A stretch of 41,017 nucleotides of DNA, from NCBI GenBank assembly GCA_021399395.1, contig JAAFKJ010000162.1, positions 1 to 41,017 on the forward strand, given 5' to 3'. Below, piece after piece: positions 4,789 through 32,755 of this stretch; position 1 is the first letter of the stretch; each line of letters starts with the position of its first letter. The notes beneath the pieces were generated by a model. It did no database searches. It worked only from the letters and a program-made list of their open reading frames with translations, and was not told the origin of the DNA. This DNA comes from Candidatus Heimdallarchaeota archaeon. Lineage in GTDB: Archaea; Asgardarchaeota; Heimdallarchaeia; Heimdallarchaeales; Heimdallarchaeaceae. The position numbers and the translations under genes were made by a program.

Positions 4789-5928
4789 TTAATCTATTTG
4801 TAGATGTGCTTGTCTGAGCTTCTCTTCAGATTCTAGAACCTTTTTTCGACTGTCTCTTCCTTTCTCAAGCACTTCCCAAAACCTTCCTACATAATCAGGA
4901 TGAATACCTGTTAGCACTCCTCTTATAGTTAGAATAGGTTCATCAATGGAATTGAGTGATGCTTTGATATCTCCTCGTTCAAATTTCTTTACAATTTTCC
5001 TTGTTTCGAAAGTGGATTGATATGTTGTTGGAGATGATATTGCTAAGAACCCTAATTTTGCTCTAGTAATATCAGCTGTTAGACTTGAACACTCATCTAT
5101 TTCATTGAAAAACAGATCAGAAAATCTTATGCTTTGAGCTTGTTCAAGGGTTTCATATTCTTTATCCAGAGAGACGATAACTCCCAATCCTCTTGCTTCT
5201 TCAGTGAAAGAATGAAAGAAATCTGTTAAACCTGCGTTGAACTCTTCATGAACACTCTCTTGTAATGCTGCAAGTATCGTTGTGGTGAGAGAATCAGCTA
5301 GGAATTCATTGCTTTTTTCCAATGCAACTTCAATCGATTCTTCTTTGAAAAGTCTCAAAAGTTTATCATTGTCAAACAAAATTATTGGACATTTTGGTCC
5401 TTGAAAATCAAACCCTAAATAATAGAGAGCTCTTGCAGAGTTATATTGAACTAGTGATGGCTCATTTTTTTCAGGTATAACAAAGACCACTGTAGGTGGG
5501 GTTCCAGTTAATTCTGCTATGATTTTACTTATCTTCATAGCTCCGGCACTGCCTGTTCCACCTCCACTACCAACAATTAAGTGAAGAGCTAAATCTTCTT
5601 CATCTCTTCTCTCATGTTTCTTGTAGAAAAGTACCTTTTCGATTTGGTCTCTTAGTTGGGATTCATTTTGCGACAATTCTTTGAATACTTTTTCTAAATC
5701 ATAATCAGAAGACTGAATATCTTTTGACCCGAACCAGTAATGGTCAGAGAAGTTGTTTACTTTAGGAGCGAAATTGTCTGTCAGATTTACAGCAAGTGAT
5801 TTTACTGTTATCCTGCTCTCTCTTAGAAGATGGATGAGTCTATCACCAATGCGACATCCTGCATTCCCTACTCCTATAACTGCGATGGATATTTTCTTGC
5901 GAAATAGTTTTTTCTTAAGCCAACTCAT
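4789..5928 (-). CDS. FtsZ/tubulin-superfamily GTPase, divergent from canonical FtsZ
   Basis: N-terminal ISIAVIGVGNAGCRIGDRL nucleotide loop; tubulin signature-like LIVGSGGGTGSAGAMK; PTVVFVIPEKNEPSLVQYNSARALYYL; FNAGLTDFF near the T7-like position. Confidence 0.85.
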   Translation of the reverse strand: MSWLKKKLFRKKISIAVIGVGNAGCRIGDRLIHLLRESRITVKSLAVNLTDNFAPKVNNFSDHYWFGSKDIQSSDYDLEKVFKELSQNESQLRDQIEKVLFYKKHERRDEEDLALHLIVGSGGGTGSAGAMKISKIIAELTGTPPTVVFVIPEKNEPSLVQYNSARALYYLGFDFQGPKCPIILFDNDKLLRLFKEESIEVALEKSNEFLADSLTTTILAALQESVHEEFNAGLTDFFHSFTEEARGLGVIVSLDKEYETLEQAQSIRFSDLFFNEIDECSSLTADITRAKLGFLAISSPTTYQSTFETRKIVKKFERGDIKASLNSIDEPILTIRGVLTGIHPDYVGRFWEVLEKGRDSRKKVLESEEKLRQAHLQID

Positions 5929-13354: not shown

Positions 13355-13447
13355 TGCATATGGAGTAATATAGCTAAATTAAGCTTATTCCGACATTATT
13401 CTTACATATAATTTAGGGGTAAGATTTCAATCGAAGAGGTAACAAAC

Positions 13448-16400
13448 GTGTCTGATAATTCTGTTACAAAAAAGATGTCTGCGGCAGCATTTTTCAATGA
13501 TAACCGAGCTATTGCTGGCTTTGGAAATTCCATGAGAGCTGTTTTTACTAGTATTAGAGAATTAGTTGAAAATGGTTTGGATGCTGCTGAAAGAAGAGGG
13601 ATAAACCCCGTTATAGAAGTCGATTTAAGAAAACTGTCCAGTAGAGAAATAAATGAGTTATTGGATGTTACACAGTACAAAAAATTAGAAAAGCATCTTG
13701 ATTTTCTTCAGCTTACTTGTAGAGATAATGGTACTGGTGTTCCTGGACATCAAATCGCAGACTTATTTGGACGAGTATTAACTGGTACAAAATATGGCGT
13801 TATTCAGACACGAGGACGTTTTGGTCTAGGTGCCAAAATGTGCTTATTATACTCTATGTCTTCTGTTGATTTACCCGCAAGAATCAAATCTCGTTATTTT
13901 ATGGATGATATAACAAATGAAATGCATTTAATGATAAATCTTGAAAAGAATGAACCAATTATCATGGAACAAAGAGAATATCTTCCTGGAGATCCCAATT
14001 ACCTAGACGAACCAGGTGTTGAAATCAGTATAACTTTTACTGGCGCTTGGAGTCTTGCTAAAAACAGTGTAAAAGAGTATTTCAGACAATTAGCAATAAT
14101 CACACCTTATTCTACTTTTAATCTCAAAATTCCCGCAGACAAAGAAGGTGAATATGATGAGCTGATTTATGAGAGTGTAGTAGATGACATGCCTGACCCT
14201 CCTGAATATGTTAAAATTCATCCTTGGGGATGTGATATCACACAGTTCAAAGCTGAATTAGGAGCTAATAAAAATAAGAAACTCAAAGGCTTTCTTGCTG
14301 ACCATTTTATGGGAGTAACTGAAGAAATCGCAGAAGATTTCTTCCAACTTCTAGAGATTGACCCTAATAAAAACCCTAAGGATCTTTCTTCAAAAGAAAT
14401 CAGAAGAATTGTACATGAAGGTTTTGTAAAGGCCTATCAAGAAGCTAAAGACATCAAAAGGAAACGGGATAGAGTCTTTCAATTTGATAGTCCGAAAGGT
14501 ACTTCTCTATCCCCATTAGGCGCTGGAAGATTGAGAAAAGGTTTAGAAAAAGAGCTCAATCCAAAATTCGTTGAAGCAATATCAAGACCTGCAAAAGCAT
14601 ATTCTGGTCACCCCTTTATCATTGAAGCAGCTTTAGGTTATGGAGGAGGAGTAAGCGAAGCTGCCCAAACTCGAGGCACTACCGTTCAAGATAACAAAAT
14701 TATTTATAGATACGCTAACCGTATCCCACTTGTTTTCGGTGCAGGAAATGACGTTATAACTCACGTTACTTCCTCTATTAGGTGGAATGAATACGGTCTT
14801 ACCCGCCAATCAGATCCCTTGGCAATTGCTGTTTCCTTGGTAAGCACAAAAATACCTTTTCCCGAAACTAGTAAAGAATATATCTCAATAGTTCCTGAGA
14901 TTGAAGAAGAGATAAGATTAGCACTGATGCAGCTAGGTAGAAGACTTAAAACCTTCCTTAGCAGAGCTAAAAGGAAACGAAGGGAACATGCACGTCTTTC
15001 TCGATTTGTTAAATCAGCTCCTGTCATCGTTGATAATTTAGCTCAAATTTTAGAGGATGAAAATCTTCCCTTAACTGATTTCAGATTTGAGAAAAACAGA
15101 ATAGCTTCTGCACTAGCTCATGGGACGTCGAAAAAGGCAAAACTATTCATGCCTCTGAGTAAAAGGTTATTTGGTTTAAATATCTGGTGTCCTACACCCA
15201 TCCAAAACACTTTGAAATCACGTGGAATTATCTCTATATCTGATTTTCTACTAACACCTACTGAGGACCTGGCTAAGATTCTTGAGATGTCACTTGTTCA
15301 GGTATATAACATCAAACTGAGAACTATCTATGAACTTGATAAAGAAGGATTAAGTCCTGGTTTAGATTCTAAGATTTTTGTTACTAGAGCAATTGAGAGA
15401 AGATTCGATACAAGTGAAAGCAAGCCTTTAATCTCTCTAAAAGATGCTTTAAACAGACGCTGGATTCAAAATAGTTATCACTTCCTAGCAACAGATTATA
15501 GAAAACTTCATTCTGTTTCCGGTTTTGTAGAGAAATTATTTGAGAGCAAGAAAGATGACCTAATAAATCAACTTTTACTAAAGAATAGAAAATCAGATGG
15601 GTCAATCAGAGCAAGTCCATCTTTGAGCGAAATCAACAAACTTACAGGTATCACTCAACTTAAGATAAAACATCTCTTCCCAACCTTCAAAGAATTAAAG
15701 CAGAAGTCTAGTGGCCATCTTTCAGCAGATATGTCAATTGAAGAATTCTTTTATCAGACTCTTCATCCTGGAGAAATAAACTACCAACAAGAAGTTACTG
15801 TTGTACTTGTTGAACATCTAAAATCTGTATTCACTGCACTTTCAAACAAGTTCCCTAACTTCAAGAACACAAGCTTAACCAAAATGAAACCAGATTGGAC
15901 TGATGGATATACAAAAAATGCTTTTCATAGAAGGAAAATAAAGATAGTTGACGATTTTATTACAGGAAATACTGATGACCTAATACTAATTAAAGAAATG
16001 GAGAGACTTCTCTATTCAACATATCTAAAAATGCTTGTTAAGGAATCACCCTCTTCCAAATTGTCAGATTTTGTAATATTTCCACTAAACGAAATGAAGC
16101 CAAAAGAAAGCGAGTTGATTAAGAATCTGATTGCAAAGGGTATCACCACTTTAGCTAAGTTAGTCTATTATACTGCAGACCAGGTAAATCAAACTAAAAT
16201 AAAACAATTAATACCTCTACTATTAGAAGAATCGAAAAGAAAATTAAAACAATCATTAATTGAAAAAGAACATGAACACAGTAGTTCTCATATCAAGATT
16301 ATTCCTGTAAATTTGGAAAAAGAGCTTCTCAAAAATCAAATTTTTAATGCATCAGCATTTCTTGCTTACTCATCTCCTGCTCTAAGAAAAATGGGTTTGA

Positions 16401-19400
16401 AGAAACGTGATGTTGAACGTATGAAGAAAGCACTTGGAACACCTATACCAAATTGGTTAGAACATCAAGAATTAATCAAGAAACTGGGTATAAATACACT
16501 TGAAGAGTTTTTCTTCAACTCTCCTGATGCATATTCTATGACTGCAGATGAGACAAAGAAATATCTAGATATGAGTGTTTTCTTACGTTCCCCAATTACC
16601 TTTAATTTCCCACATCTACGAAATATATCTCACTTAGTAAGAGAAGTTGGACTAAATTGTATTGGGAGATTTGCAATCTGGCCAAATAAAGAATTAGTAG
16701 AAATACTGGAAGTTTCAGAAAACAAGATAAAATCAATGAAAGAAAGTATTTCTATTGCAGATTATCAGACGAATAAAGAGAAGTATGGAATAGATTTCAA
16801 ACAGCTTAAAGGTATTTATCCAAAACTTGTAGAATATTTCGGAAATACAGAACCTACAATTCAAGATCTGTTTTATCTTTATCCCTCTGAAAAACTTCAT
16901 TTCACAAAAGGCTATTGGATTAAAATCGAAAATATAAGCGATCTTTCGCAAATGGAGATCATTGAGTTATCACATTTGTTTGACAAGAATCCCAAGCAAC
17001 TTCCAGCACTAAAAGAAGCACTACTAAGATTAAAAGCACGGAACACAGTCACAATTAAACAATTTTTAGATTTGATTCCTGAGATTATTGAATCAGAACT
17101 AACCAATATTCCTCAAAGAAATGCAGCTCTTGAACTGCATAGAATGTTAAAGACCAGAAAAATAGAAGAAGAAGACGAATTTAGCAAACAAATTCTACTA
17201 ATATGTGAGTTTGATGATTTTCAAAGCGCTCTTGCACTACCCATATCAAGAGTTTCAAAGTTATCCCTTTCAGATTATGAAACCCTAAGGAGTAAGGGCA
17301 TAATTGCAGTTCATCAGCTGTTTGAATACCTTCCAAAGGAGATAGCTACAATTCTAGAAAAAGAAGAACAAGAAATGATTAATCTCTTGAATGATTTCCA
17401 ACTTGAACAACAAGGAACAAACTTCTTTGAGAAAATAGACAGAAATAGGTTTAAATCATTAGTATCTTTTGACTTTGAAGAGTCTGAAAGATTCTCCTCT
17501 CATGAAATTCTATCTTTAGTCCTTGCTGGTTATAATACTGTTGACAAAATCTTCTATCTCGCACAACCAATGATTTTCTCAGCCCCTCTAGTAAATTGGA
17601 ATGTTGTTGATAAATTCAGAAAGTTACTGAGATCACCTTTAACGTTAGTTACTTGGGAGAAAAAGGTAAAGAAGACCATACAAATTGAAGGAGAAGAAGG
17701 AACAAAAACAGTTGAAGAAGATCAAATAACAACTCTCTCAACTGAACAGTTAAGCACACTGCAAAATAACGGTATAACTAGAATAATTGATCTGCTTGTA
17801 AGTCAAGCTGAGAATATTTCTTCCTATCTCGGAATTGGTTTGGATGAAGCAAGGAGCTTCCAGAAGAACATTAGAATTAGTGATACAGGAACTGATATTT
17901 CTGAACTTGACTTATTCAAGACTGAGGTTGTTAAGGCGCTTGAACTATCCAATATTTACACTTTAGAAGATCTTTATTTCTCATCCACTGAAAATAAATG
18001 GGACCATACAATATTACCATGGAGAACAGTGGAGGCATTCAAACAAGTTCTGAATTTACCTCTAAATCACATATCTGATATGCTTGATGCTGAGTTAATT
18101 ACAGCTTTACAAGAAGTAAATGTTCTGACACTTCTTGGATTTATGCTCAGTTCCCCAGAAAGTCTGATGGAAAGGACTGGTATTCCTGATGAACGAATAG
18201 AAAACATAAAACGAGGTCTAGATTTATCAGATATTCTAAGTTATTTCTCTCTACCAAGTTACTTCCTACCCAATCTTACGTTCGAACAAACAGAAATACT
18301 AAGAGATAACAAAATCCAAACAATTGCGGATTTCATATTGAGTTCAAATCAAAAACTTACCAAATTACTCTCGATTCCATCAAAACAATTAGATGAAATA
18401 AAGGCATCCTTAACAGCTCAGAAAATAGTTGAAGTATATGAAGATAAAGGCATATTTGCATTTGAAACAAAGTTATTTGATAAAATGGAACAAAAACAAC
18501 TGAGTAGAGATTCTATCTTCCAATTTGAGAGATTTCAAACAATTCAAGAGTTGTTCTATGAAAGTGATCCTGCATTTTATCAACTAAACCCTGAATTATG
18601 GCCAAAAATATCTGCAGTTCAAAAAATACTAGCTCTTCCACTAAGAATCTTTACAGAGATTTCAGAATATTCTCTGGATGTTTGGGAGCAAAATAATATC
18701 AAGAATGTCTTTCAGTTACTATTCATTCCTGATGAAGATATCACAGATCCTTTACTATATAGATCGGTTTCTTCTAATTCTTCAAAAATGTTAGAAATGA
18801 GATCTTTCCATTTCTTCTCAAAATTACCTTCATCTGTCTATAATAGTTCTTTCTTTGAAAATATTGTTCAAGATTTCGAAAATAAGACATTATCAGATGT
18901 CATAACTGATCCTAAAGTTATATCTCATCTCCTTTCCAAGGATAAACGCTATCAAGCAGAGAATTATAATCTCACGCTAATAAGATCTCTTTTGGAATTA
19001 CCTCTCAGAATCACTCCATTCTTCACACGAATCAAGAAAATTCAGCGCGAAGAGTATACCAATACTAAGATAGGTGACGTGTTTGACATTGATTTAACAG
19101 AACATTCTGGTTTATCTCCCTTCTATAAGAAACTCATGGAAGTTGATTCTTTCAATAGTTTAGTAAAAGACGTTGCAGTACCAATTTCATCTATCGGTCT
19201 TCCTCGAGAAATGGCTCTCAAATTGAGCAAATCATCTGTTAACACATTGATCGATTTCTTCTCTGTACCTGCTCAAGTTCTTTCAGAAATTACTGGATTA
19301 TCCATGAGATATATCAGAGAGATACGAAATAGTCTAAACTACCAGCTGATAGTATCCTTTAGAGCAGAGAAATCACACAAGGTTCTTGAATCTTCAATTA

Positions 19401-22400
19401 TTACACAAAAACAGATTGATCAACTAGCAACATTAGGTTTGACAGATATAGAATCTATTTACTATTCAGCTGACACTCAGCGTATTTCCGACATACTACC
19501 TGTTCAGAACTATCAAAAGATAATGGAAATTCTCTCTGGATCAATTAGGTTTATTGGTTTTCTATCATTTGACGAAATTAAGCGTCTAGAGTTTTATGAA
19601 ATTAACTCTATCATTGATCTGGCTTTGTTAGATAAAAAAGAACTCTTCCATATCACACAAAATCCTATTTACAAAGAATTTCATGCCTTAGATATTCTAT
19701 CTTTGGATGAATTAGTAGATAAGAGAATTGAAGCAGCAATCCCAATCACACTATTGCCCTCTATTGAAGAAGATTATTTAGAGAAAATCAACAAACTTGG
19801 AATCTATTCCATCCAAGATTTTAATTCAAGAATGGCTGAAATAAGAGAATCACACCCCCATCTTGTTAAATTAGATGTTTTCCGCGAAGTACAAATGTAT
19901 CTCGCATCAGTTGCTTTCATAGGATTAACCAATCAACAAGTACAGAAGTTAATCTACTCTGGAGTTGGTGATATTCTCTCCTTTATAACCGAAGATGTTT
20001 CTACAATTGCTCTTATACTAGATATAAGCGAGAAGGATGTAAGAAAGCATATTGATAGGATAGAACCTCTTGCACTTGCACAAGAAGTTAGAAGAAAAGG
20101 AGTAAAAATTGAAGAATTTCCAGTTCTGAAGAAGTCAACTATTAATTATCTCTTAAAATCGGATAAAGAATATGTTCAAGATGTTTATAGTCATTATTAC
20201 CAAGCATTTACAATCACCAATGTCTCTGATGAAGTAATCAAAGATTTCCTTGGAAATTGTAACATTTCGATTTATAGAATAAAAGAAATATCGACTGAAA
20301 CAAAATTACAATTGTCACAAATGGGTGTTCTAAGAATAATAGATTTCCTTTGTGTAAATGATAGTGAATTGAAGAAGGCTTTTGATGGATCTATCCCCAA
20401 AGAAATATCTGAAATAAGAAAAGGGCAGTTTAGTTTAGATAGAGGTACACCTCTGTTACTAAATGAACCAATCAAAGATCTTCTAAGAGACCTCTATTTT
20501 GATCCAGATAAAAAGACTGTAGAGGACCTATTTGGATTTGTTCCTGAACACCTGCTACAGTTTTCAGAATTCGAAAGAATTGAGAAAATCTCAAATATCT
20601 CCTTCGTTGAGCAACTTGTAAGTTTTCTAAGTTTGAGTGTCTTTTCTCTCCCCTATTTTGACATGGATACTAAAGTTGCTCTAAGAAGAAATGGTGTCCA
20701 TCATGTAATTGAGCTGATTTCTACCAAAGTTCAAATGCTGGAAAATTCGAATTCTGAGATAAATAAAAATATTCGTGAATTTCAGAGCAACTTCAATTTG
20801 ACCAAAAGAATGTCTGAAACCTTCAGTCCTCATCTCAACCAAACACTCAATTTATCTAAGAAAATGAGTGAACAGTTCCGAAGTTATGGTTTAACAACAG
20901 GTCTTTTCCTCTTTGATTTTGTTCAGCATCCCCTATTCAATTTTTCAGATAAAGAACAGAAGGTTATCTCGGATATTACCTTTAATTTCTTCCGACCTGT
21001 TTCTTGGTTGTATGATGTTATCGGTTTAGATGTTAAAAATTTCAATCGGTTGATAAGTAGGCAAACAACTAACATTCTATCAGCTCATTTGCTTCTAACA
21101 GAATCAAAATCCAAACCCGAAATTGTAGCATTCCCTTCAAATATCATCTCCAAGTTCAATAAAACTCTCAATGAAGAATTGATTAGTCTCAAACCCCCAG
21201 CTTGGGCTATCAGACTTGACGAGATGAAATTGATTACTGATAGTAAATTCTTGAAGAGACTCAAATCAAGGAAAATAGTATATATTGATGAGTTGATCGC
21301 ATCAGATAGTTTAGTGAATTCAGATACTAAAATTGCACAAGAAATCAGACCTATACTTTACTCTCTCAAGAATTTCAATATCTCTACACTAGACGGATTA
21401 ACTTCTACACAAACCCAAAAACTAATTCAGAATGGTGTTCGTAATGTTCTCCATTATCTCTCACTTCCCGCACCTATGCTAGCCAAAATTACAGGGCAAT
21501 CAGTTGAATCAATTAGAGCAATTATTACTAAAATAGATTTAAACGTTTTAGAAGGAAGTGTCCGATTAGTAGGACTAGATATAGATTTATTCACAGAAAT
21601 TTCTGATAATGTTAAGAATCTTCTGAAGGAATATGGTTGTGTTTCACTCACTCAAGCAGCGAATCTGAATCTTGATCAACTACCAATTTCACATGAAGAT
21701 AGGAAAAGTTTAACACAATTGGTATCTATGCTCTTGACTCCAATTACAATTATTGGGAAAGTATTAAAATTAAGTAAGAAAGAAATTGATGAGCTTCTTT
21801 CTAATAATGTCTTAACTTATACTGACCTTTTAGAAGTTCCTCAACAGAAGTGGTCAGCTAGCATAAAACGGTTGATTTCAAGACAGAAAACAGACCCCAA
21901 TTACTTGATTAAAAGACTACATGATATTGAAAAGTTTGGTGTGTCTATTCAGAAAATAGGTTTAACAAAAGCAGTTACAGAATCATTAATCTCTGCTGGA
22001 ATAACAACAGTAGATCATCTACTTTACCTACCTTCAACACATGTTTCTTCGATAACTAAACTGAAGGAAGATGAACTTGAAGATTTATTAATAAAACTGA
22101 ACTCAAGTCCAAGTCTAATTCCAGGATTTTCAAAAAATATTTTGGTCTATATCTACAGTAAACCTCATTATTCAATAGCAGACTTATTGGTCAATTTCCA
22201 TAACATCTCAAAAGAGAATTTGAAGATAATTCTAGATGGTGTTGACAAAGTAAAGAATGTCGAGGAATTGAAGTTCAAAGATCCTCTTACCACAACTGAA
22301 AAATATATTATTGGAAAAGAGTTCCACTCATATACATCACTTATAACTTCAAAGAAATTTATTGAAGATAAAAAGATATTTTCAAGAGTTGCTCCTTACT

Positions 22401-25400
22401 TACTTGCTAATATTAGGTATCTTGGGTTAGATAATAAAATCGAAGCCGCACTTAAGAGAGCAGGGATTACAACAGTTGCAGATTTACTTATCCTTTCTCC
22501 GAAAACTATAGCGACTCAAGCAAGAACAAGTATTCAGAAAATACAGGAAATTATTATGGCAATCAATGTAGATGATATAAATTCAAAAGTTATTATGAAT
22601 CAGGATTTACATCTCAGAGATGCATTCTTTTTAACTGACAGAGACAAAGAGTTCCTAAAATCAATTGGTGTTTTCAACTTAAACGATTTGAAAGAATACT
22701 CTGTATACTCCTGGATTGTATCTGAAAGCAGGATTGAAACAATAAGGGGAAGAATAGGCTCTATACTTCAAACTCCAATCCTATACTACAAGGAAACTTT
22801 GAAACGACCATTCTATGAAATAGAGAACAACTATCTGTTAAAGGAAATTCATTCTGTTCAAGAGCTAATAACAATTTCAAACCAAAAAGAAGTGGATAAC
22901 ATTACCGAATTTCTTAGAACCTTTTCTGCTTCTACTGAAAAGATAAAAGAGGATTTTGTAACAATTGAGCAAGTATTCAGCGAAGTTGAACTTACTGCTC
23001 TGAACAAAGATCTCAAGATTAAGAAATTAACCTTGTTTAACGAGCTTCTACTTGAAATGTATATTAATTACAAGAAGCTTAGTCCAGAAATTCTCAAGAT
23101 GCTTCAAGTTCTGAAACATCCTCTTTCAGCTTCATCCAAATTTAGTACAAGTGATATTCAAAGCTTGAATTCCAAGAATATTTACACATATATTGATCTT
23201 TTAATTAAACCGATAAGTTACTGGCCTACATTTGCGCCAATCAAACTTAAAACAAAGATAAAAGAGTTAATACCAACTCTTACACTCAAGAAAATTAAAA
23301 GTGATATGACAAAGAGAACTAAGATTTCTTCAACTAAAATCTTTAATCCGAATGTAAAGAAAGTGTTGGGTTCAGCTTACCAAACAGTAGATGAATTAAT
23401 TTTTGAAATAATGGTTGAGAATTATCGCGTTTCTAAATCTGTAATTAACTCGGTTCAAAAAACTTTGACAACTTCTGTTTTATTGGTAAAAATTCCAAAA
23501 ATACCATTAAAAGCATGGAAGAAAACAACCAGCAGTCTAAAGGAAATTGGGGACTTGTATAAGTTATCAAACAAAGATCTTGGATCTATGCTTTCACTAC
23601 CACCTAATGATGCTACAAAGACTATTGATAATTTGACACCAGAAAATATCCTTAACCCACCTATGGTAAAAGCTAACAAAATCTTGTCTTTGAAGGATGT
23701 TGAATTTTTCCATAGTCTTGGAATAAGAAACTTCATTCAGCTGTTGGATGCTATGAAAGTGTCAAATACAATTCCTAAGAACTTGAAGGAGAAAATCAAT
23801 ACTTTAGTTAAACTTGATGTTAAGAAATTAGAACCCAAAATAAATGAATCACTAACATTGATGGAACTACTGTTCTTAAATCCTAATTTATCAACCCTAG
23901 CTATTACTAAATCGCAGAAAGATATTCTTCAAAGAACAGCTGATTTCATGTTCTCTAGAGGAACAGAACTTTGTACTGTTCTAAATGTAGATATGTCCAA
24001 TCGTAAAATCAAATGTCCAGATTTATCTTTAGAGTATCTCTTATTGTTACATAAGTTTGATACCAAATTATATACCTCGATTCTAGGTAATCTTCCTGAA
24101 GAATATTATTCCCAAATAAAAGAGCTCTTTGGATATCTTGAAAGATCACCTGTTATTCTCTCTAAACCAACGTTGGAAAATATCGATCAAATTGCCTCTC
24201 AAGAATTTGAAACAATTTCAGAGATGTTGCTTGAACCCAAAAAATCCCTCTTTAGTGTAGTAACAGATAATACTTTGCAGAGAAATATAAGAAATATCTC
24301 TCTTACCCTTCTCAAGGAACTCAAGAACAACTTCTTAGAATTTCCAGCAAAATTATTTGCTGCAAGTGAATTGAACACTTTGAAACGATCTTCAATCTAC
24401 ACAGTAGAAGAAGCTCTTCTGTTTAATAAGAAATCTAAATCAAAAATTTCAAAAGAATGGGAACTTTGTTCCAAACTAAAAAACATAATGTCGATGGAAC
24501 TGAATGATTTGCCAGCAATGATTGAAAATAAAGAAGCTTTCAATTATGCTGCTAAAAATAAACTAAAGACAATCTATGATTTGTTAGCACACTGTAAGCA
24601 TGGTGCTAGTTCTGAAGTAATATGTCAGGAAATATTACCTACAATAAGATTCGATTTACTCGCTGATTTGATAACTAAAGAGCAACGAAGACTCTCAAAT
24701 TTTGTAAAGGGAACAGAGCTGAATACTATCTTAAAGAAGCATAAGTTGAGCACATTTGGTTCCTTATTTAATTTCATTGAGAAAACAGAATTACAGAATA
24801 TGGAATCAGATTTTGAAAAGCTTCTATCAATCCTCAGAGCTCCTGTATCAATTTTAACAAGTGATAAATCTTTATCAGTAAAACTAAATAAACTTGGATA
24901 CAATCAGGTACTTGATCTCTTACTACCTGCAAATATTAGTAGCATACTCTCTAGAAGCAAATTAACTGATAGGCAGTTAGCTTCAGCAAAGGAAATAGTA
25001 AAGAAACTTAATTTTGTTACCATAAACAGCATTATTACAGCTGACTGTTATCCAATAACTAGTGTTAGTTTTATTGATGACAATATTAAGAAATTATTAC
25101 TAAGAGCAGGATATTCAACAATAACTCATCTAAATATTTCTGATGAAATTCTGATGAAAACATCTGGACTAACAGCGTTGCCACTATCTAGAATTAAGAA
25201 GATATTAATGACACCTTTCTATTATCTTTCAGACTTAACAAGAGAAAATCCTTCAAGCTTGTTTATCTTGTATAACAAGGGGATAAGCATAGTCAGAGAT
25301 ATATTCGTCTCTAACTGTAAGCAACTCTCAAGTCAGTTAGGAATACCTGAAAGACAAATGAAATCCCTTCTTTCCACACTTACAGATCAGTCCATAAAGC

Positions 25401-26020
25401 TAGCTCAAAAGGATGAAACAGATCTGAAACCATCTATGCCGTTTATTGGGAATCAAGAAATTCAAAAACTTGAAGAAGCAAGTATTACCTCGGTTCAAGA
25501 GATAATTTTCCCGACTAATAAAGCCAAGAAATCTTCAGCTCTTACATTGGTTAAAGTTGCTAAATTTGTGCAACATCTAGATAAGAAAATTGAAGAGCTG
25601 GATGTTAAAGCAGGTGTTTTAGTTCAAATAAAACAACTTGGTATAAACAATTTCAAAGAATTTATACTCTATCCGTCAGCTGTTTTGGACAGCAAAGTTG
25701 ACTTAAGTTATATGGCTATTAAAGGTCTAAAAAACAGACTTCCTTTAACTAGCACAAAGTCTTCAGCTGCAAAGAAACCACCATCTAAAGCTAAACCAAC
25801 ACCGAAAGCATCAACTACTAAGAAGACCACTTCTTCAGCATCCAAACCCAAGACTAGCTCTGCAAAAAAACCACCAACAAAGAAACCAGAGCCTAAGACA
25901 GCAAGTTCGAAGGGTACCAAACAAACAACCTTACTAGATATGGGTTCTGATAAAAAGAAGAAAACGTCATCTTCGTCTAAAAGCTCTTCAAAGAGCAAAA
26001 AAAGGAGTAGTGGAAAATGA
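13448..26020 (+). CDS. top6B: Giant type II DNA topoisomerase VI subunit B with ~3,550-aa HhH-like repeat extension
   Basis: 4190 aa, one open frame. GHKL ATPase motifs RELVENGLDAAERR, CRDNGTGVPGHQIADLFGRVLTGTKYGVIQTRGRFGLGAKMCLLYS; transducer-like HPFIIEAALGYGGG...RIPLVFGAGNDVITHV. C-terminal to ~residue 535 are many repeats of the form L...GI.ti.dLL....., ending in a Lys/Ser/Pro-rich tail. GTG start. Confidence 0.95.
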   Translation: MSDNSVTKKMSAAAFFNDNRAIAGFGNSMRAVFTSIRELVENGLDAAERRGINPVIEVDLRKLSSREINELLDVTQYKKLEKHLDFLQLTCRDNGTGVPGHQIADLFGRVLTGTKYGVIQTRGRFGLGAKMCLLYSMSSVDLPARIKSRYFMDDITNEMHLMINLEKNEPIIMEQREYLPGDPNYLDEPGVEISITFTGAWSLAKNSVKEYFRQLAIITPYSTFNLKIPADKEGEYDELIYESVVDDMPDPPEYVKIHPWGCDITQFKAELGANKNKKLKGFLADHFMGVTEEIAEDFFQLLEIDPNKNPKDLSSKEIRRIVHEGFVKAYQEAKDIKRKRDRVFQFDSPKGTSLSPLGAGRLRKGLEKELNPKFVEAISRPAKAYSGHPFIIEAALGYGGGVSEAAQTRGTTVQDNKIIYRYANRIPLVFGAGNDVITHVTSSIRWNEYGLTRQSDPLAIAVSLVSTKIPFPETSKEYISIVPEIEEEIRLALMQLGRRLKTFLSRAKRKRREHARLSRFVKSAPVIVDNLAQILEDENLPLTDFRFEKNRIASALAHGTSKKAKLFMPLSKRLFGLNIWCPTPIQNTLKSRGIISISDFLLTPTEDLAKILEMSLVQVYNIKLRTIYELDKEGLSPGLDSKIFVTRAIERRFDTSESKPLISLKDALNRRWIQNSYHFLATDYRKLHSVSGFVEKLFESKKDDLINQLLLKNRKSDGSIRASPSLSEINKLTGITQLKIKHLFPTFKELKQKSSGHLSADMSIEEFFYQTLHPGEINYQQEVTVVLVEHLKSVFTALSNKFPNFKNTSLTKMKPDWTDGYTKNAFHRRKIKIVDDFITGNTDDLILIKEMERLLYSTYLKMLVKESPSSKLSDFVIFPLNEMKPKESELIKNLIAKGITTLAKLVYYTADQVNQTKIKQLIPLLLEESKRKLKQSLIEKEHEHSSSHIKIIPVNLEKELLKNQIFNASAFLAYSSPALRKMGLKKRDVERMKKALGTPIPNWLEHQELIKKLGINTLEEFFFNSPDAYSMTADETKKYLDMSVFLRSPITFNFPHLRNISHLVREVGLNCIGRFAIWPNKELVEILEVSENKIKSMKESISIADYQTNKEKYGIDFKQLKGIYPKLVEYFGNTEPTIQDLFYLYPSEKLHFTKGYWIKIENISDLSQMEIIELSHLFDKNPKQLPALKEALLRLKARNTVTIKQFLDLIPEIIESELTNIPQRNAALELHRMLKTRKIEEEDEFSKQILLICEFDDFQSALALPISRVSKLSLSDYETLRSKGIIAVHQLFEYLPKEIATILEKEEQEMINLLNDFQLEQQGTNFFEKIDRNRFKSLVSFDFEESERFSSHEILSLVLAGYNTVDKIFYLAQPMIFSAPLVNWNVVDKFRKLLRSPLTLVTWEKKVKKTIQIEGEEGTKTVEEDQITTLSTEQLSTLQNNGITRIIDLLVSQAENISSYLGIGLDEARSFQKNIRISDTGTDISELDLFKTEVVKALELSNIYTLEDLYFSSTENKWDHTILPWRTVEAFKQVLNLPLNHISDMLDAELITALQEVNVLTLLGFMLSSPESLMERTGIPDERIENIKRGLDLSDILSYFSLPSYFLPNLTFEQTEILRDNKIQTIADFILSSNQKLTKLLSIPSKQLDEIKASLTAQKIVEVYEDKGIFAFETKLFDKMEQKQLSRDSIFQFERFQTIQELFYESDPAFYQLNPELWPKISAVQKILALPLRIFTEISEYSLDVWEQNNIKNVFQLLFIPDEDITDPLLYRSVSSNSSKMLEMRSFHFFSKLPSSVYNSSFFENIVQDFENKTLSDVITDPKVISHLLSKDKRYQAENYNLTLIRSLLELPLRITPFFTRIKKIQREEYTNTKIGDVFDIDLTEHSGLSPFYKKLMEVDSFNSLVKDVAVPISSIGLPREMALKLSKSSVNTLIDFFSVPAQVLSEITGLSMRYIREIRNSLNYQLIVSFRAEKSHKVLESSIITQKQIDQLATLGLTDIESIYYSADTQRISDILPVQNYQKIMEILSGSIRFIGFLSFDEIKRLEFYEINSIIDLALLDKKELFHITQNPIYKEFHALDILSLDELVDKRIEAAIPITLLPSIEEDYLEKINKLGIYSIQDFNSRMAEIRESHPHLVKLDVFREVQMYLASVAFIGLTNQQVQKLIYSGVGDILSFITEDVSTIALILDISEKDVRKHIDRIEPLALAQEVRRKGVKIEEFPVLKKSTINYLLKSDKEYVQDVYSHYYQAFTITNVSDEVIKDFLGNCNISIYRIKEISTETKLQLSQMGVLRIIDFLCVNDSELKKAFDGSIPKEISEIRKGQFSLDRGTPLLLNEPIKDLLRDLYFDPDKKTVEDLFGFVPEHLLQFSEFERIEKISNISFVEQLVSFLSLSVFSLPYFDMDTKVALRRNGVHHVIELISTKVQMLENSNSEINKNIREFQSNFNLTKRMSETFSPHLNQTLNLSKKMSEQFRSYGLTTGLFLFDFVQHPLFNFSDKEQKVISDITFNFFRPVSWLYDVIGLDVKNFNRLISRQTTNILSAHLLLTESKSKPEIVAFPSNIISKFNKTLNEELISLKPPAWAIRLDEMKLITDSKFLKRLKSRKIVYIDELIASDSLVNSDTKIAQEIRPILYSLKNFNISTLDGLTSTQTQKLIQNGVRNVLHYLSLPAPMLAKITGQSVESIRAIITKIDLNVLEGSVRLVGLDIDLFTEISDNVKNLLKEYGCVSLTQAANLNLDQLPISHEDRKSLTQLVSMLLTPITIIGKVLKLSKKEIDELLSNNVLTYTDLLEVPQQKWSASIKRLISRQKTDPNYLIKRLHDIEKFGVSIQKIGLTKAVTESLISAGITTVDHLLYLPSTHVSSITKLKEDELEDLLIKLNSSPSLIPGFSKNILVYIYSKPHYSIADLLVNFHNISKENLKIILDGVDKVKNVEELKFKDPLTTTEKYIIGKEFHSYTSLITSKKFIEDKKIFSRVAPYLLANIRYLGLDNKIEAALKRAGITTVADLLILSPKTIATQARTSIQKIQEIIMAINVDDINSKVIMNQDLHLRDAFFLTDRDKEFLKSIGVFNLNDLKEYSVYSWIVSESRIETIRGRIGSILQTPILYYKETLKRPFYEIENNYLLKEIHSVQELITISNQKEVDNITEFLRTFSASTEKIKEDFVTIEQVFSEVELTALNKDLKIKKLTLFNELLLEMYINYKKLSPEILKMLQVLKHPLSASSKFSTSDIQSLNSKNIYTYIDLLIKPISYWPTFAPIKLKTKIKELIPTLTLKKIKSDMTKRTKISSTKIFNPNVKKVLGSAYQTVDELIFEIMVENYRVSKSVINSVQKTLTTSVLLVKIPKIPLKAWKKTTSSLKEIGDLYKLSNKDLGSMLSLPPNDATKTIDNLTPENILNPPMVKANKILSLKDVEFFHSLGIRNFIQLLDAMKVSNTIPKNLKEKINTLVKLDVKKLEPKINESLTLMELLFLNPNLSTLAITKSQKDILQRTADFMFSRGTELCTVLNVDMSNRKIKCPDLSLEYLLLLHKFDTKLYTSILGNLPEEYYSQIKELFGYLERSPVILSKPTLENIDQIASQEFETISEMLLEPKKSLFSVVTDNTLQRNIRNISLTLLKELKNNFLEFPAKLFAASELNTLKRSSIYTVEEALLFNKKSKSKISKEWELCSKLKNIMSMELNDLPAMIENKEAFNYAAKNKLKTIYDLLAHCKHGASSEVICQEILPTIRFDLLADLITKEQRRLSNFVKGTELNTILKKHKLSTFGSLFNFIEKTELQNMESDFEKLLSILRAPVSILTSDKSLSVKLNKLGYNQVLDLLLPANISSILSRSKLTDRQLASAKEIVKKLNFVTINSIITADCYPITSVSFIDDNIKKLLLRAGYSTITHLNISDEILMKTSGLTALPLSRIKKILMTPFYYLSDLTRENPSSLFILYNKGISIVRDIFVSNCKQLSSQLGIPERQMKSLLSTLTDQSIKLAQKDETDLKPSMPFIGNQEIQKLEEASITSVQEIIFPTNKAKKSSALTLVKVAKFVQHLDKKIEELDVKAGVLVQIKQLGINNFKEFILYPSAVLDSKVDLSYMAIKGLKNRLPLTSTKSSAAKKPPSKAKPTPKASTTKKTTSSASKPKTSSAKKPPTKKPEPKTASSKGTKQTTLLDMGSDKKKKTSSSSKSSSKSKKRSSGK
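15110..25750 (+). repeat. Protein-level tandem HhH-like repeat array within Top6B
   Basis: At least two dozen recognisable units by eye, e.g. IQNTLKSRGIISISDFLLTPTEDLAKILEMSLVQVYNIK; TQKLIQNGVRNVLHYLSLPAPMLAKITGQSVESIRAIITKI; VTESLISAGITTVDHLLYLPSTHVSSITKLKEDELEDLLIKL; IEAALKRAGITTVADLLILSPKTIATQARTSIQKIQEIIMAI. Not conspicuous as a nucleotide repeat. Boundaries approximate. Confidence 0.8.
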
Positions 26021-27426
26021 CAGACCAAAATAATTTTACATTCATAAATTCTACAGTATTGCCTGCAACAGAGCGTGAAGCAAGTTTCGATAAAGATATT
26101 CTTACACGTGAGATGTATAACTGGGCAAGAGACACTTTTGATTTGAAAAGAGGTACATATATACTCTTTCTTAGAAGTTCAAAGAAATGGTATCAGCTAG
26201 AGCCAACTAAGAAACTCTCACGCTATCCACTCGAAAAGCAAAAAATGAAAGTTAGTGTCAAGCAAACCGTTCAATTAGATAAAATTGAAGCTTTAAAGGC
26301 TGAACTATTACATAAAAAAGAATTTTTCATGCCATATGGTGTAACTAATGTTGAAACAAAAAATTCACAGGAAACCAATAATCTTCTCGTTGAATATGCT
26401 CTAGATTTCCTTCAGCAAGCAATGGTAAATCCTGCAGATGCTTCCTTCTATATCCCTTCTAGAGGTGGAACTAATGTGGGCTTTGATGAAGAACAAGAGC
26501 TTGTTTTGATAGGTAGACAGATGATTGAAAGACAATTCAGAAGTTTATCTTCTGTAAGTTCTGTTGAACAGATGACTATCATAATGAAGCTAATACACGA
26601 CTTGCTCTCAAGAGATATACATAGTACAAAAAGAGATATTTTCTATATGGATGTAAATTCATTTGAGAAACAGTCTGTCTCTGATTCTCTTGTAGAAGAT
26701 CTTGGTGCTATGTTACAGGTTACTCGCTCTTCCCTAAATGTAAGTGCTTCATCCAAAGGAATTGTTGTTGGAAGAATGAGTTTTAGAGAAAAAGGAGACT
26801 TTATTGACTGCAGTGCTATTGGGGCTGGTAAAGCAATTTCACCCAATATCGACGATATTGAGGATTTTGATACAGATGCGGAAATGTGTCTTGTCATTGA
26901 GAAGGACGCTGTCTTTAACAGATTAGCTGAGGATCAATTTTATGATTATGTTCCTAGTATCCTGATTACAGCAAAAGGACAACCTGATGTAGCAACACGA
27001 CAATTTCTAAAGAAGATAAATGATGATCTTAGTATACCTATTTTTGCCATTATGGATGCTGATCCATATGGATTTGAAATTATGAGGGTGTATAGTGTAG
27101 GAAGTAAAGCTTTGAGTTTTGAATCGAGCCATCTTGCTGTTCCTAATATCAAATGGTTAGGTCTTCTTCCAAGTGATCTTTCAACTGACAGTGGTTTTGA
27201 TATTCCACGAAGTGCTTTACTCAAATTAACTTCTAAAGATATTCACAGATCGAAACTAATGTTAGAAGAAGAATTTGTTCAACGAAAACCAAAATGGAAA
27301 GAACAACTTCAAATTCAGTTAGATAGTGGTTTTAAAGCGGAAATACAAGCTTTGAATGCACGTGATCCTCAATATATTACTAACTTCTATTTACCACATA
27401 AAATAGAGTCTGGGGATTTTATTTAA
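26017..27426 (+). CDS. top6A: Type II DNA topoisomerase VI subunit A (Spo11-like)
   Basis: Catalytic Tyr motif STKRDIFYMDVNSFEKQ; Toprim LVIEKDAVFNRL and FAIMDADPYGFEIMRVY; SHLAVPNIKWLGLLPSDL. Overlaps top6B by 4 nt. Confidence 0.95.
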   Translation: MTDQNNFTFINSTVLPATEREASFDKDILTREMYNWARDTFDLKRGTYILFLRSSKKWYQLEPTKKLSRYPLEKQKMKVSVKQTVQLDKIEALKAELLHKKEFFMPYGVTNVETKNSQETNNLLVEYALDFLQQAMVNPADASFYIPSRGGTNVGFDEEQELVLIGRQMIERQFRSLSSVSSVEQMTIIMKLIHDLLSRDIHSTKRDIFYMDVNSFEKQSVSDSLVEDLGAMLQVTRSSLNVSASSKGIVVGRMSFREKGDFIDCSAIGAGKAISPNIDDIEDFDTDAEMCLVIEKDAVFNRLAEDQFYDYVPSILITAKGQPDVATRQFLKKINDDLSIPIFAIMDADPYGFEIMRVYSVGSKALSFESSHLAVPNIKWLGLLPSDLSTDSGFDIPRSALLKLTSKDIHRSKLMLEEEFVQRKPKWKEQLQIQLDSGFKAEIQALNARDPQYITNFYLPHKIESGDFI

Positions 27427-27495: not shown

Positions 27496-27858
27496 TCACT
27501 TGACTTTTTTCAAGATTATTTCAACTGTTGAGACTGTTTTTGGTGGGATTCCTTCTTCATCTGACTTTATCTCTTCGGAACCGATTATAACATCAGTAAC
27601 TTCAACCATATCTTGTAGAAATTTTCTTCTAGTTATCTCTGCAACATCTACAGCTTTAGAAATTTGTCTTCCACGAGCTTGTATGGAACATTCGTCACTT
27701 TTGTTCAGGATAGTTACTGCAACCAAAACATAGCTAATTGTGTTCTTTTTACCTATGTAGATAATTTGGCTTTGGATTTCGGGTTTCTTCTTTGGAGTAG
27801 TCTTTTTAGCAGGAGCTTTTTTCTTAGTTTTTTCAACTTTAGCTTCTTCTTCACTCAT
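27496..27858 (-). CDS. albA: Alba-family chromatin protein with Lys-rich N-terminal tail
   Basis: IIYIGKKNTISYVLVAVTILNKSDECSIQARGRQISKAVDVAEITRRKFL matches the Alba fold. The ORF opens at 27867, but ATG 27858 has an SD-like GGTGAG upstream. Confidence 0.88.
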   Translation of the reverse strand: MSEEEAKVEKTKKKAPAKKTTPKKKPEIQSQIIYIGKKNTISYVLVAVTILNKSDECSIQARGRQISKAVDVAEITRRKFLQDMVEVTDVIIGSEEIKSDEEGIPPKTVSTVEIILKKVK

Positions 27859-28055
27859 ATTTCTCACCTGTAGTATGTATGTGTAATGTGTTAAGAGTAA
27901 GTAGTAAAAATCATGCGCCCATGCTTAAAAATTTTTCCTTGAACATTTTAGCACAAATATACTGAATAATAAGTTAAAATCGAATGAAACATACTTATAA
28001 ATATCTAAATGTTGAGGTTGCATAAGAATATTCTCAAAGAGAAAGAGTAGATAAT

Positions 28056-29804: not shown

Positions 29805-30404
29805 GTGGTCAATTTGAGTTATAGAGAAAAATTATTTCTTAAGGTTATACTTGCGGGTGAAGCAGGAGTCGGTAAAACAAGTTTGAGAAGGGCATATTTA
29901 GGAGAAGGGTTTGTTACTGAACATTTGCAAACTATTGGGGCGGATTTCGCATCTCTTACGAAAAAAATTCAAGACTATTCTGTACTCTTTCAGATTTGGG
30001 ATATTGCAGGTCAAGATGTTTTTGAGAATGTGAGGATGATGTATTATAAGGGCGCACTTGGTGCTCTGATGGTTTTTGATGCAAAAAAACTCTCTACCTT
30101 AAAAGTTCTTGATAAGTGGGTAAATGAGCTAGTAAAAGGAACTGAACGAGGCGTAGTGCCATTTTCGTTCTTAGGTAATAAAATGGATTTAGTCACCGAG
30201 AGCGCTAGGAATAAAATAAGAACTCAGGTTAAGGGTATAATTACCAATCTTAACAAAAAATATGCAGATAAAGGATTCAAAGTAGATTATTTCGAAACAT
30301 CTGCAAAAACTAGTGAAAATGTAAGCGATGCTTTTGAAAGCCTTGGAACAAAAATTATTGAGTATATTGAATATAGGAAGGAAATGAGGAGGAAAGGAGT
30401 TTGA
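29805..30404 (+). CDS. Ras/Rab-like small GTPase
   Basis: G1 GEAGVGKTS, switch-region T (TIGADF), G3 WDIAGQ, G4 NKMD, G5 ETSAK. GTG start. Confidence 0.95.
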   Translation: MVNLSYREKLFLKVILAGEAGVGKTSLRRAYLGEGFVTEHLQTIGADFASLTKKIQDYSVLFQIWDIAGQDVFENVRMMYYKGALGALMVFDAKKLSTLKVLDKWVNELVKGTERGVVPFSFLGNKMDLVTESARNKIRTQVKGIITNLNKKYADKGFKVDYFETSAKTSENVSDAFESLGTKIIEYIEYRKEMRRKGV

Positions 30405-32755
30405 GTAGAGAGCAAATTCAAGAGTATCTACAGACCAATAAAACTGATAGAATCAATCTGAGTAATATTAAGGAACTCCATCAACTTATCTCATTTATGG
30501 CTGATAAAGAAGAAAGGATTAGAAAGAAGTCAGCTCAACTTGTCTTTAGTAGCGCTTATATCCCTACAGACAAAATTCTAGATTATTACATCACAGATCC
30601 CCATCCATTTGTTAAACAAGTTATTATTGAACAACTTCACTACTTTATTCCAATTCTTTCGAAGTACTTAACCAAAGATTCAAGTTTTGAGAAGATAAAT
30701 GATTTATTAGCAACTCAAAAAGCTGAAAATTTCTTTAAATCCCTGGAGAAATCCTATGAAATTGTTCCTGTTTTAACTACTTTAGCTGAAATTGCTTTGA
30801 GAACCTGTGATTCATCCATCTCTAATATGGAAGAAACTTTCATCGATTTCCACTTCATTTCTACACAAACTAAAGAGATTAAGAAAATTCTCAATTTCCG
30901 AATCAAACAATCGGATCCGGTTTACACTGAATTAACACTTTTTACACTTACAAAATTTCCTGAACTTACAAATCTGATTATTAAAGAAGTAAGAAACATT
31001 ATCCTTAAAGAAAAAATAGAATCACACATCAAATATGCAGCCTTAGCATTAATGCAAATTGATAACCCTAAAAATGCTGATGTTCTGATTAATAGATTAA
31101 AGAACTTTAACGATTCAGTAGACACTCAACTTGCAATAATTGAATCTTTGGGAACATTGGGTAACAAAAGCGCAAGTGAAATCTTAATATCTCAATTCGA
31201 TAAGGGAGAACCTTTAGCTTATTATTCTGCACGATCTATGGCACTACTTGGGGATTCAGTTCTTCCTGATCTTGTCAACGCCTTAGAAGATGATAGTAGG
31301 GTTCCTTACATCATTGAAACAATGAAAAGGATTGGAGATATCAGTTATGAATATCTAATGTCTGCGCTTCAAAAGGGTAACAAGAATATTAGAAAAAATG
31401 TTGCACAATGTCTCACATTGGTTATGAGCGAAAAGCATGGTTATGAAGGTGCAATTAGATTATTAACAACACAATTAGCAGGAAAGAATCCTTCTGTGAT
31501 TGAAGCGATAACTGAGGCATTATTGACCTTGGGGACACCTTCAATCAAAGTACTTATTGAGGAATTAACTGAAGATGATTTAAGGCTCAGGAAAAACGCT
31601 ATTGACGTCCTTCATTATTTTGGCGAAAATAATATTGAATTAGCTTTAGATGGGATTCTGGATATAGATACACCTTTAGCTGTCAATCTAGGTTTAATTT
31701 TACACCTTTACTATCCTAATGAAGATTTGAAAAAACTTGGTTACTCTTTTGCATTCTCCTCAAGTAAATTGCGCATAAAAAATAATCAGATATTTGAACT
31801 TGCATTAAAATCACTCAAAGAAATAGATCCTGATATAAGGGTAAGAAGTAGCACATTACTTCATCAATTTGGGGCCAAAGCTGTTCCACATCTAAATAAT
31901 ATGTTAACCGATCCAAATATCCAAGTTCGAAGGAAAGCAATTGAATCTCTCAGAAAGATTAAGAGTAAAAGAGCCTTAATTATACTAACAAGGGCAGCAA
32001 AAGATCCTGATGATACTATTGCTGAAATCTCAACAAGAGCTCTAGGCGATTTGAAAGATCCTGGTGTAATTGATGTGATAATCCACAATATGAGAAGACC
32101 TAAAAAACTTGTTAGAGAAGCAGCAATTGATGCAGCAGTAAATATAGGGGCTCCAGTAGCAAAGAAACTTCTTGCACAATTGAATGCACCAAATGCTAAT
32201 CTTGTGAGTTCAACCATAGAAGCATTAGGTCAAATGGATTATAACATACTGAATCTCAGTACTCCTTTTCTGAAAACAGCTGATGAGAAATGGTTTAAGA
32301 ATTTACAAAAAACTGTTACCAAAATGGGAACTGGAGCTAAAACAGTTCTCTTGAAGATTTATAATTCATCAAAGAATCAAAAATCAAAAGATAGACTCTT
32401 AATCCTCCTCTCTATTGTTAAGGAAGGTTCTATTATTAACGATACAATTAAGAAAATCAACTCAGAAGAGCATAAATTGGGAGTTTTAGTTTTTAATAAT
32501 ATTGGAGAAACATCAGTTAAGATTCTTACTAGAGAACTTAAGAAACTTACAAAGAAAGCAAGAGCCGATTTCAGTCTTTACAGTAAAGGAATAAACGCTG
32601 AAATTCTAATTCCCCTACTAGAAAAATCAGTAAGTGATTCAAAGCTGAAGGATATAACACAGTCTTTGTTAAAAAATCATATGCGAACAATAAGAAGATA
32701 CTGTCAGAGCGTAGGAAAGAACTATAACGATTATGTAAGCCAATTTAAAGAATAA
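30401..32755 (+). CDS. HEAT-repeat protein
   Basis: Helical repeats such as AVPHLNNMLTDPNIQVRRKAIESLRKIKSKRALIILTRAAKDPDDTIAEISTRALGDLKDPGVIDVIIHNMRRPKKLVREAAIDAAVNIGA. TTG start overlapping the GTPase stop by 4 nt. Confidence 0.88.
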   Translation: MSREQIQEYLQTNKTDRINLSNIKELHQLISFMADKEERIRKKSAQLVFSSAYIPTDKILDYYITDPHPFVKQVIIEQLHYFIPILSKYLTKDSSFEKINDLLATQKAENFFKSLEKSYEIVPVLTTLAEIALRTCDSSISNMEETFIDFHFISTQTKEIKKILNFRIKQSDPVYTELTLFTLTKFPELTNLIIKEVRNIILKEKIESHIKYAALALMQIDNPKNADVLINRLKNFNDSVDTQLAIIESLGTLGNKSASEILISQFDKGEPLAYYSARSMALLGDSVLPDLVNALEDDSRVPYIIETMKRIGDISYEYLMSALQKGNKNIRKNVAQCLTLVMSEKHGYEGAIRLLTTQLAGKNPSVIEAITEALLTLGTPSIKVLIEELTEDDLRLRKNAIDVLHYFGENNIELALDGILDIDTPLAVNLGLILHLYYPNEDLKKLGYSFAFSSSKLRIKNNQIFELALKSLKEIDPDIRVRSSTLLHQFGAKAVPHLNNMLTDPNIQVRRKAIESLRKIKSKRALIILTRAAKDPDDTIAEISTRALGDLKDPGVIDVIIHNMRRPKKLVREAAIDAAVNIGAPVAKKLLAQLNAPNANLVSSTIEALGQMDYNILNLSTPFLKTADEKWFKNLQKTVTKMGTGAKTVLLKIYNSSKNQKSKDRLLILLSIVKEGSIINDTIKKINSEEHKLGVLVFNNIGETSVKILTRELKKLTKKARADFSLYSKGINAEILIPLLEKSVSDSKLKDITQSLLKNHMRTIRRYCQSVGKNYNDYVSQFKE

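Follow-up and report, generated by a model that had tools for sequence, protein, structure and literature searches.

Asgard archaea are the archaea closest to eukaryotes. Topoisomerase VI (Topo VI) is regarded as the ancestral type II topoisomerase of archaea and is related to the SPO11 machinery of eukaryotic meiosis. In the stretch of DNA analysed here (41,017 nucleotides from a Candidatus Heimdallarchaeota archaeon, hereafter the window), the gene encoding the B subunit of this enzyme continues for thousands of codons beyond its recognizable catalytic part. The locus thus raises the question of whether so long a frame is real and, if so, what the additional protein is and what it may be doing on a topoisomerase.

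The reading frame and its Top6B core

The top6B frame lies at 13448–26020 on the forward strand. It has a GTG start, preceded 8 bases upstream by a candidate ribosome-binding site (GAGG, 13436–13439, forward strand), and runs for 4190 codons without interruption, so that a single protein of 4190 aa with a calculated mass of 478.9 kDa is encoded. Residues 1–544 (13448–15079, forward strand) form the Top6B core, a GHKL ATPase and a transducer, as defined by family-profile, Pfam and PDB matches. Residues 7–544 match both the Top6B equivalog NF003218 (440 bits, against a cut-off of 274) and TIGR01052 (385 bits, against a cut-off of 381); the transducer (Topo-VIb_trans) is located at residues 349–515 (177 bits, E = 3e-52), and the PDB match to the core is a solved Top6B, 2zbk_B (E = 5e-82). 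The GHKL boxes are intact, with ENGLDA at residue 41, DNGTGVP at 93 and GRFGLGAK at 123, as is the lysine loop STKIPF at 466. The original prediction had described one unbroken 4190-aa frame with a Top6B ATPase and transducer in its first ~530 aa and had proposed a search of the N-terminal part against Top6B family HMMs; the description holds, and both profiles score above their cut-offs.

Directly 3' of this frame, and overlapping it by 4 bp, is top6A (26017–27426, forward strand). Its 469-aa product contains Toprim and TP6A_N domains (TOP6A-Spo11_Toprim, E = 1.6e-58), and both the tyrosine motif TKRDIFY and the Toprim motif DADPYG are present. The same adjacency is seen in nearly all long-armed loci that are not cut by a contig end. 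No further Top6B or Top6A match was detected in the window genome, which is 82% complete. On the strength of these sequence features, 13448–26020 encodes the B subunit of a genuine, specialised and probably active Topo VI. An A2B2 holoenzyme would have a computed mass of ~1.06 MDa, the B subunit alone accounting for nearly half a million daltons, a size in keeping with the very large Topo VI machine that had been predicted.

An Alba gene (27496–27867) lies just past top6A on the opposite strand, convergent with it. Genes for a Ras-family GTPase and a HEAT-repeat protein (29805–32755) overlap by 4 bp, an arrangement typical of Asgard small-GTPase operons. A 379-aa tubulin/FtsZ-family protein is encoded at 4789–5928. 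The gene at 38137–39048, which adjoins dCTP deaminase and tRNA synthetase genes, encodes a protein of 303 aa whose C-terminal region weakly matches a RING finger.

The window genome is a MAG-like assembly (2.8 Mb in 201 contigs), and it might be supposed that a giant frame in so fragmented a source is an artefact of assembly or annotation. The chance of this is negligible. The core is matched in 23 of the 24 genomes of the same family (f1, in the anonymous family labels f1–f29 used here), and the nearest named relatives, with 83–92% core identity, are mostly Candidatus Heimdallarchaeota MAGs, including AB_125. A frame of 4140–4305 aa is present in 15 f1 genomes, complete at both ends in 13 and running off the contig in two, and the f1 frames shorter than 4140 aa all come from fragmented assemblies. 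One f1 genome, G003, carries a 4305-aa frame on a single 3.33-Mb contig. The recurrence of a colinear frame among many independently assembled genomes, as well as in this single-contig one, the continuation of repeats throughout the extension and the position of top6A directly 3' of the frame all argue against an artefact, and a chance frame, a misassembly or a frame break, the last two having been raised as concerns with the original prediction, are rejected on the evidence of these relatives. Expression as separate proteins was another such concern, and no f1 sequence is split in a way that would suggest it. A single frameshift occurs in one MAG from another family (G033, locus L108), where it separates the core (a 629-aa frame) from the extension (a 3018-aa frame); a sequencing error or recent lesion is the likely cause.

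The 13 complete f1 sequences can be aligned with gaps of 0–2% per 100-residue bin within the genus, and 11% in the tail. Within the genus, identity is about 90% in the core but drops to 31–79% along the array, with 31–54% in the C-terminal half. In comparison with the closest relative, the dN/dS ratio is 0.035 for the core, 0.04–0.09 for the array and 0.29 for the tail, values that are rough because dS is near saturation. Since indels are few despite the falling identity, and dN/dS is low, the array is held in register by selection on the protein, and the extension is, as judged from these alignments, under purifying selection.

The tandem array and the basic tail

The extension (residues 545–4100; 15080–25747, forward strand) consists of ~121-aa modules arranged in tandem, each made up of two helix-hairpin-helix (HhH) units that resemble the RAD51 N-terminal domain. 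When the extension profile is compared with itself, off-diagonal matches are found with E = 9e-33 over 2240 columns, and the profile autocorrelation peaks at a period of 121–122 residues. An iterated module HMM detects 25 modules in the window protein and 25–29 in each relative (E < 0.01); it finds no matches in 50 shuffles or in the reversed sequence, and none in the Top6B core, RadA, a tRNA synthetase, a HEAT protein or Top6A. At this threshold the modules span 2450 of the 3555 extension residues, and their spacing suggests that the window protein may hold about 29 in all. The most regular stretch identified by the module HMM (19223–21001, forward strand) consists of five consecutive modules, at residues 1926–2033, 2048–2155, 2168–2276, 2289–2385 and 2412–2518. 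The two units within a module are related, with the pattern LxxxGIxTIxDhhxxP...LxxhhxhsxxxIxxIKxxL, and the two unit types alternate along the array. The predicted fusion of a Top6B core to ~3,550 aa can therefore be refined to a core followed by ~25–29 double HhH modules and a basic tail.

Pfam matches in the extension include RAD51D_N (89.5 bits, against a cut-off of 27.3) and RNA_pol_A_CTD (26.2 bits, against 23.8). An AlphaFold2 (AF2) model of residues 1425–1670 (17720–18457, forward strand) is confident and nearly all helical, with a pLDDT of 83.9 and a pTM of 0.70. RAD51-family N-terminal domains are among its best Foldseek matches, several with probabilities of 0.96–0.99, although no E-value is below 0.2 and the fold call thus rests on agreement with the Pfam match. 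The model matches 8xbw_L over 56 columns at 1.9 A, and entries for topoisomerase V (Topo V) occur lower in the list, with low probability. A larger model, covering 1001 residues, was not reliable enough (pLDDT 55), and a Foldseek search with it gave no significant match. Nothing significant was found in a viral fold library, and a two-module profile detected no relative among PDB sequences. An Ig-like C-terminal domain of the Methanosarcina mazei type, a beta-sandwich of ~100 residues, was also considered and is rejected: the extension is ~3,550 aa of HhH modules, the modelled segment is nearly all helical and a Pfam search of the window protein returned no Ig-family match.

The net charge of the array is about zero in f1 (+0.5 per 100 aa in the window protein), and the array is acidic in most of the other long-armed families (most of f2–f5; pI mostly 5.1–6.2). 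In per-module statistics, the sole conserved basic feature is one lysine-preferring position per unit, occupied by lysine in 90–97% of cases in f26 and decayed to 35–39% in the longest arms; apart from it, no conserved basic surface was found. The G-h-G hairpin glycines are also largely lost in the longest arms. These properties divide the original prediction of a DNA-binding or tethering scaffold: the conserved ~3,550-residue fusion stands, but DNA binding in the form proposed is not supported by an array that is neutral to acidic. Processive or loop-organising action, also raised in that prediction, would be conjectural.

Beyond the array is a Lys/Ser/Thr-rich basic tail (residues 4101–4190; 25748–26017, forward strand) with a net charge of +24. 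It contains the sequence KQTTLLDM (residues 4158–4165; 25919–25942, forward strand), which is conserved and similar to a PIP box without the aromatic residue. The [KR]QxTL portion is kept in all 13 complete f1 sequences, 22–39 residues from the end, and is followed by [LM][DE][MLIV] in 12 of them; elsewhere in the same proteins it occurs once in 52,740 residues. By these counts, [KR]QxTL is a conserved short motif resembling a PIP box. It is not a canonical PCNA-binding PIP box, given that the aromatic missing from the tail is retained by FEN1 (QKSLDSFFG) and RFC-L (QxSLxxF) encoded in the same genomes. Docking to histone tails was considered because of 8xbw, the title of which describes binding of the H4 tail by the RAD51 N-terminal lobe; a search for the Pfam Histone family found no match in the 82% complete window genome.

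Distribution of long Top6Bs and their companion enzymes

Among the 232 genomes of the Asgard phylum that were surveyed, long Top6Bs are confined to f1–f7 and f26. Their lengths are family-specific: about 4200 aa in f1, at least 4244 in f2, about 3570 in f3, about 3480 in f4, 2312–2324 in f5, about 2290 in f26 and about 1120 in f7. Contig ends truncate several of the f4 frames and both of those in f6. Whether giant lengths might prove common for Top6B had been a further concern; within the phylum they are not, most other Top6Bs being about 500–700 aa. Some reach 1000–1250 aa because of internal insertions, without array modules. In f15, f16 and f18–f20 (loci L088–L093), large insertions are located between the GHKL domain and the transducer, and those of f15 and f16 contain repeated GIGKxTL-like stretches.

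In a tree built from the core, all 18 long sequences fall in one clade (SH-aLRT 99), to which the 547-aa Top6B of f27 is sister. In its first half, the f1 array is colinear for long stretches with those of f2–f5 and f26; modules are matched only weakly in the f7 extension. The simplest reading of these comparisons would be a single origin with stepwise growth of the array. A well-conserved 596-aa stretch of the array has matches in 52 of the 232 genomes, almost always within a long top6B frame or contig-cut pieces of one, and a stand-alone array protein is rejected on this basis. A second place matching the stretch is present in the one-contig assembly G050. A phage origin was considered as well; no phage record matches the Top6B core.

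Matches to gyrA are present in 24 of 24 f1 genomes, in all genomes of f2, f3, f5 and f6, and in eight of nine f4 genomes, the exception (G036) being 80% complete. In f5, gyrA is located directly before top6B. No gyrA match was found in f7 genomes, and no gyrB in those of f26, two of which, ~100% complete, have no gyrA match either. Both of these families carry a second, short Top6B beside the long one, and a second Top6A was found in all six f7/f26 genomes tested (375–390 aa where complete). In G057, G058, G181 and G182, for example, from the same two families, a long-armed Topo VI set is found together with a canonical one, and each set includes a separate Top6A. The Top6A beside a long Top6B has ~110 extra N-terminal residues (26017–26346 in the window), with frame lengths of 466–501 aa in f1–f5 as compared with the shorter canonical second Top6A, and it is possible that this N-terminal extension is a contact for the Top6B arm.

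Since either gyrA or a second Topo VI is present, the giant Topo VI is accompanied by another type II topoisomerase where tested, and we infer from these draft genomes that it is never the sole enzyme of this type there. Gyrase is neither necessary nor sufficient for the array, as f26 and f7 lack gyrase, and f18–f20 have gyrase and a Top6B without array modules. The published idea that gyrase drives Top6B extension (PMC9348778) would accordingly need modifying, and f26 and f7 rule out gyrase as its sole driver. The GyrA match at G000:C45:3981-6737 and those in other f1 genomes are split by an in-frame insert of ~430 aa after profile position ~116, and in some genomes also after ~66, the pattern expected of an intein in the active-site region of gyrA.

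Possible roles of the arm and relation to known systems

The reading that we favour, with a probability of about 0.45, is that a specialised Topo VI carries the array as an arm for tethering or recruitment, with a basic anchor. Two such arms, each of ~3,650 aa, would project from the transducer ends of an A2B2 holoenzyme and act as long tethers built from modules, and the many small HhH/SAM-like surfaces of these modules could dock partners or other DNA-bound proteins; such docking is proposed by analogy with the fold class only. The basic tail and [KR]QxTL would fasten the end of the arm to DNA, to chromatin or to a protein of replication or segregation. Held in this way, the strand-passage core might stay close to the appropriate duplexes and be biased toward decatenation and chromosome segregation, with bulk supercoiling left to gyrase or, where gyrase is lacking, to the second, canonical Topo VI. 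Topo VI is described as preferring decatenation (PMC8837201), which makes it plausible that such an arm would hold the enzyme close to sister duplexes. A stronger form, in which a megadalton Topo VI with repeat arms would serve as a chromosome-scale tether or scaffold for sister-chromosome separation, with a condensin- or axis-like role apart from supercoiling by gyrase or the second Topo VI, is improbable.

The main rival, and the one nearest to the idea of the original prediction, is a processivity track like that of Topo V, in which the HhH modules would wrap or line DNA, keeping Topo VI attached to its substrate. Modules of the same class occur in tandem on a topoisomerase in both cases, and those of Topo V wrap around DNA, apparently serving as a processivity factor (PMC9489208); the lysine-preferring position, so well kept in f26, the basic tail and the low-probability Topo V entries in the fold search would also fit. 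A net charge of about zero in f1, and an acidic array in most other families, would not be expected of such a track, nor would the loss of G-h-G glycines and the decay of the lysine in the longest arms. It is nevertheless a contender, if a somewhat doubtful one, because Topo V itself surrounds DNA with few direct contacts and a slightly positive cavity (PMC9489208), and by analogy a neutral net charge may be compatible with DNA binding.

It has also been proposed that an extension could separate Topo VI from gyrase (PMC9348778), whether by avoidance or by sequestration. The gyrA matches throughout the tested genomes of f1, f2, f3, f5 and f6 and in most of f4, and the gyrA gene directly before top6B in f5, are what such a function would predict. 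However, the ~2290-aa Top6B of f26 and the ~1120-aa Top6B of f7 occur without gyrase matches, which refutes this as the sole cause, and other families with gyrase have Top6Bs of 1000–1250 aa without modules; as the main explanation it is quite improbable. The possibility that the array is a mere spacer, produced by neutral tandem duplication of a dispensable tail, gains something from the fast-diverging C-terminal half and from poorly conserved module surfaces, but a dispensable tail of 3,550 aa should have gained indels and stops. Instead, length and register are fixed in each family with indels nearly absent, dN/dS in the array is low, and the tail motif is invariably kept, so that neutral expansion is very improbable.

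A clade of Heimdallarchaeota-related Asgards has thus rebuilt Topo VI, and the product should rank among the largest topoisomerases known. The confinement of the long forms to one clade, their stepwise lengths and the constant presence of a second type II enzyme make Topo VI specialisation testable. No Top6B with an HhH array was described in the literature covered by a full-text search (most subscription papers and all preprints fall outside it), although two published surveys come close. Villain 2022 (PMC9348778) likewise reports Asgard Top6Bs with a C-terminal extension accompanying gyrase, and describes such extensions in gyrase-encoding archaea as a globular domain; its text contains no giant length or HhH array, and in f26 and f7 the extension is found without gyrase. 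Wu 2022 (PMC8813620, Extended Data Fig. 7) likewise shows proteins of more than 3000 aa in selected Asgard archaea, with their CDD domains, and the giant Top6B or a relative may be plotted there. The passages of that paper dealing with giant genes concern those of mobile elements (aloposons) and do not mention a topoisomerase.

With the archaeal Topo VI of S. shibatae (2zbk) and M. mazei (2q2e), the enzyme described here shares the GHKL and transducer core, the catalytic boxes and the operon with Top6A, but the giant Top6B alone adds about 3,550 C-terminal residues of tandem HhH modules, whereas in known Top6Bs the last element is a helix or an Ig-like domain (PMC9348778). In unit pattern, and probably in fold class, the modules are like the (HhH)2 N-terminal domain of RAD51/RadA (Pfam RAD51D_N, HHH_5), which occurs as a single copy before the RecA core rather than in tens of copies of two alternating unit types. 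The closest architecture is that of the type IC enzyme Topo V of Methanopyrus kandleri, in which a topoisomerase domain is followed by tandem (HhH)2 domains (PMC9489208), 12 in number as compared with ~25–29 double modules in the giant Top6B. The catalytic domain of Topo V is unrelated to that of Top6B, however, and no Topo V sequence match was found by PDB sequence or module-profile searches; with a catalytic part that is Top6B, identity with Topo V is rejected. The giant Top6B belongs with Topo VI B as a variant, not with Topo V and, as a second, apparently independent topoisomerase with a tandem HhH extension, it offers a way to learn the function of such arrays.
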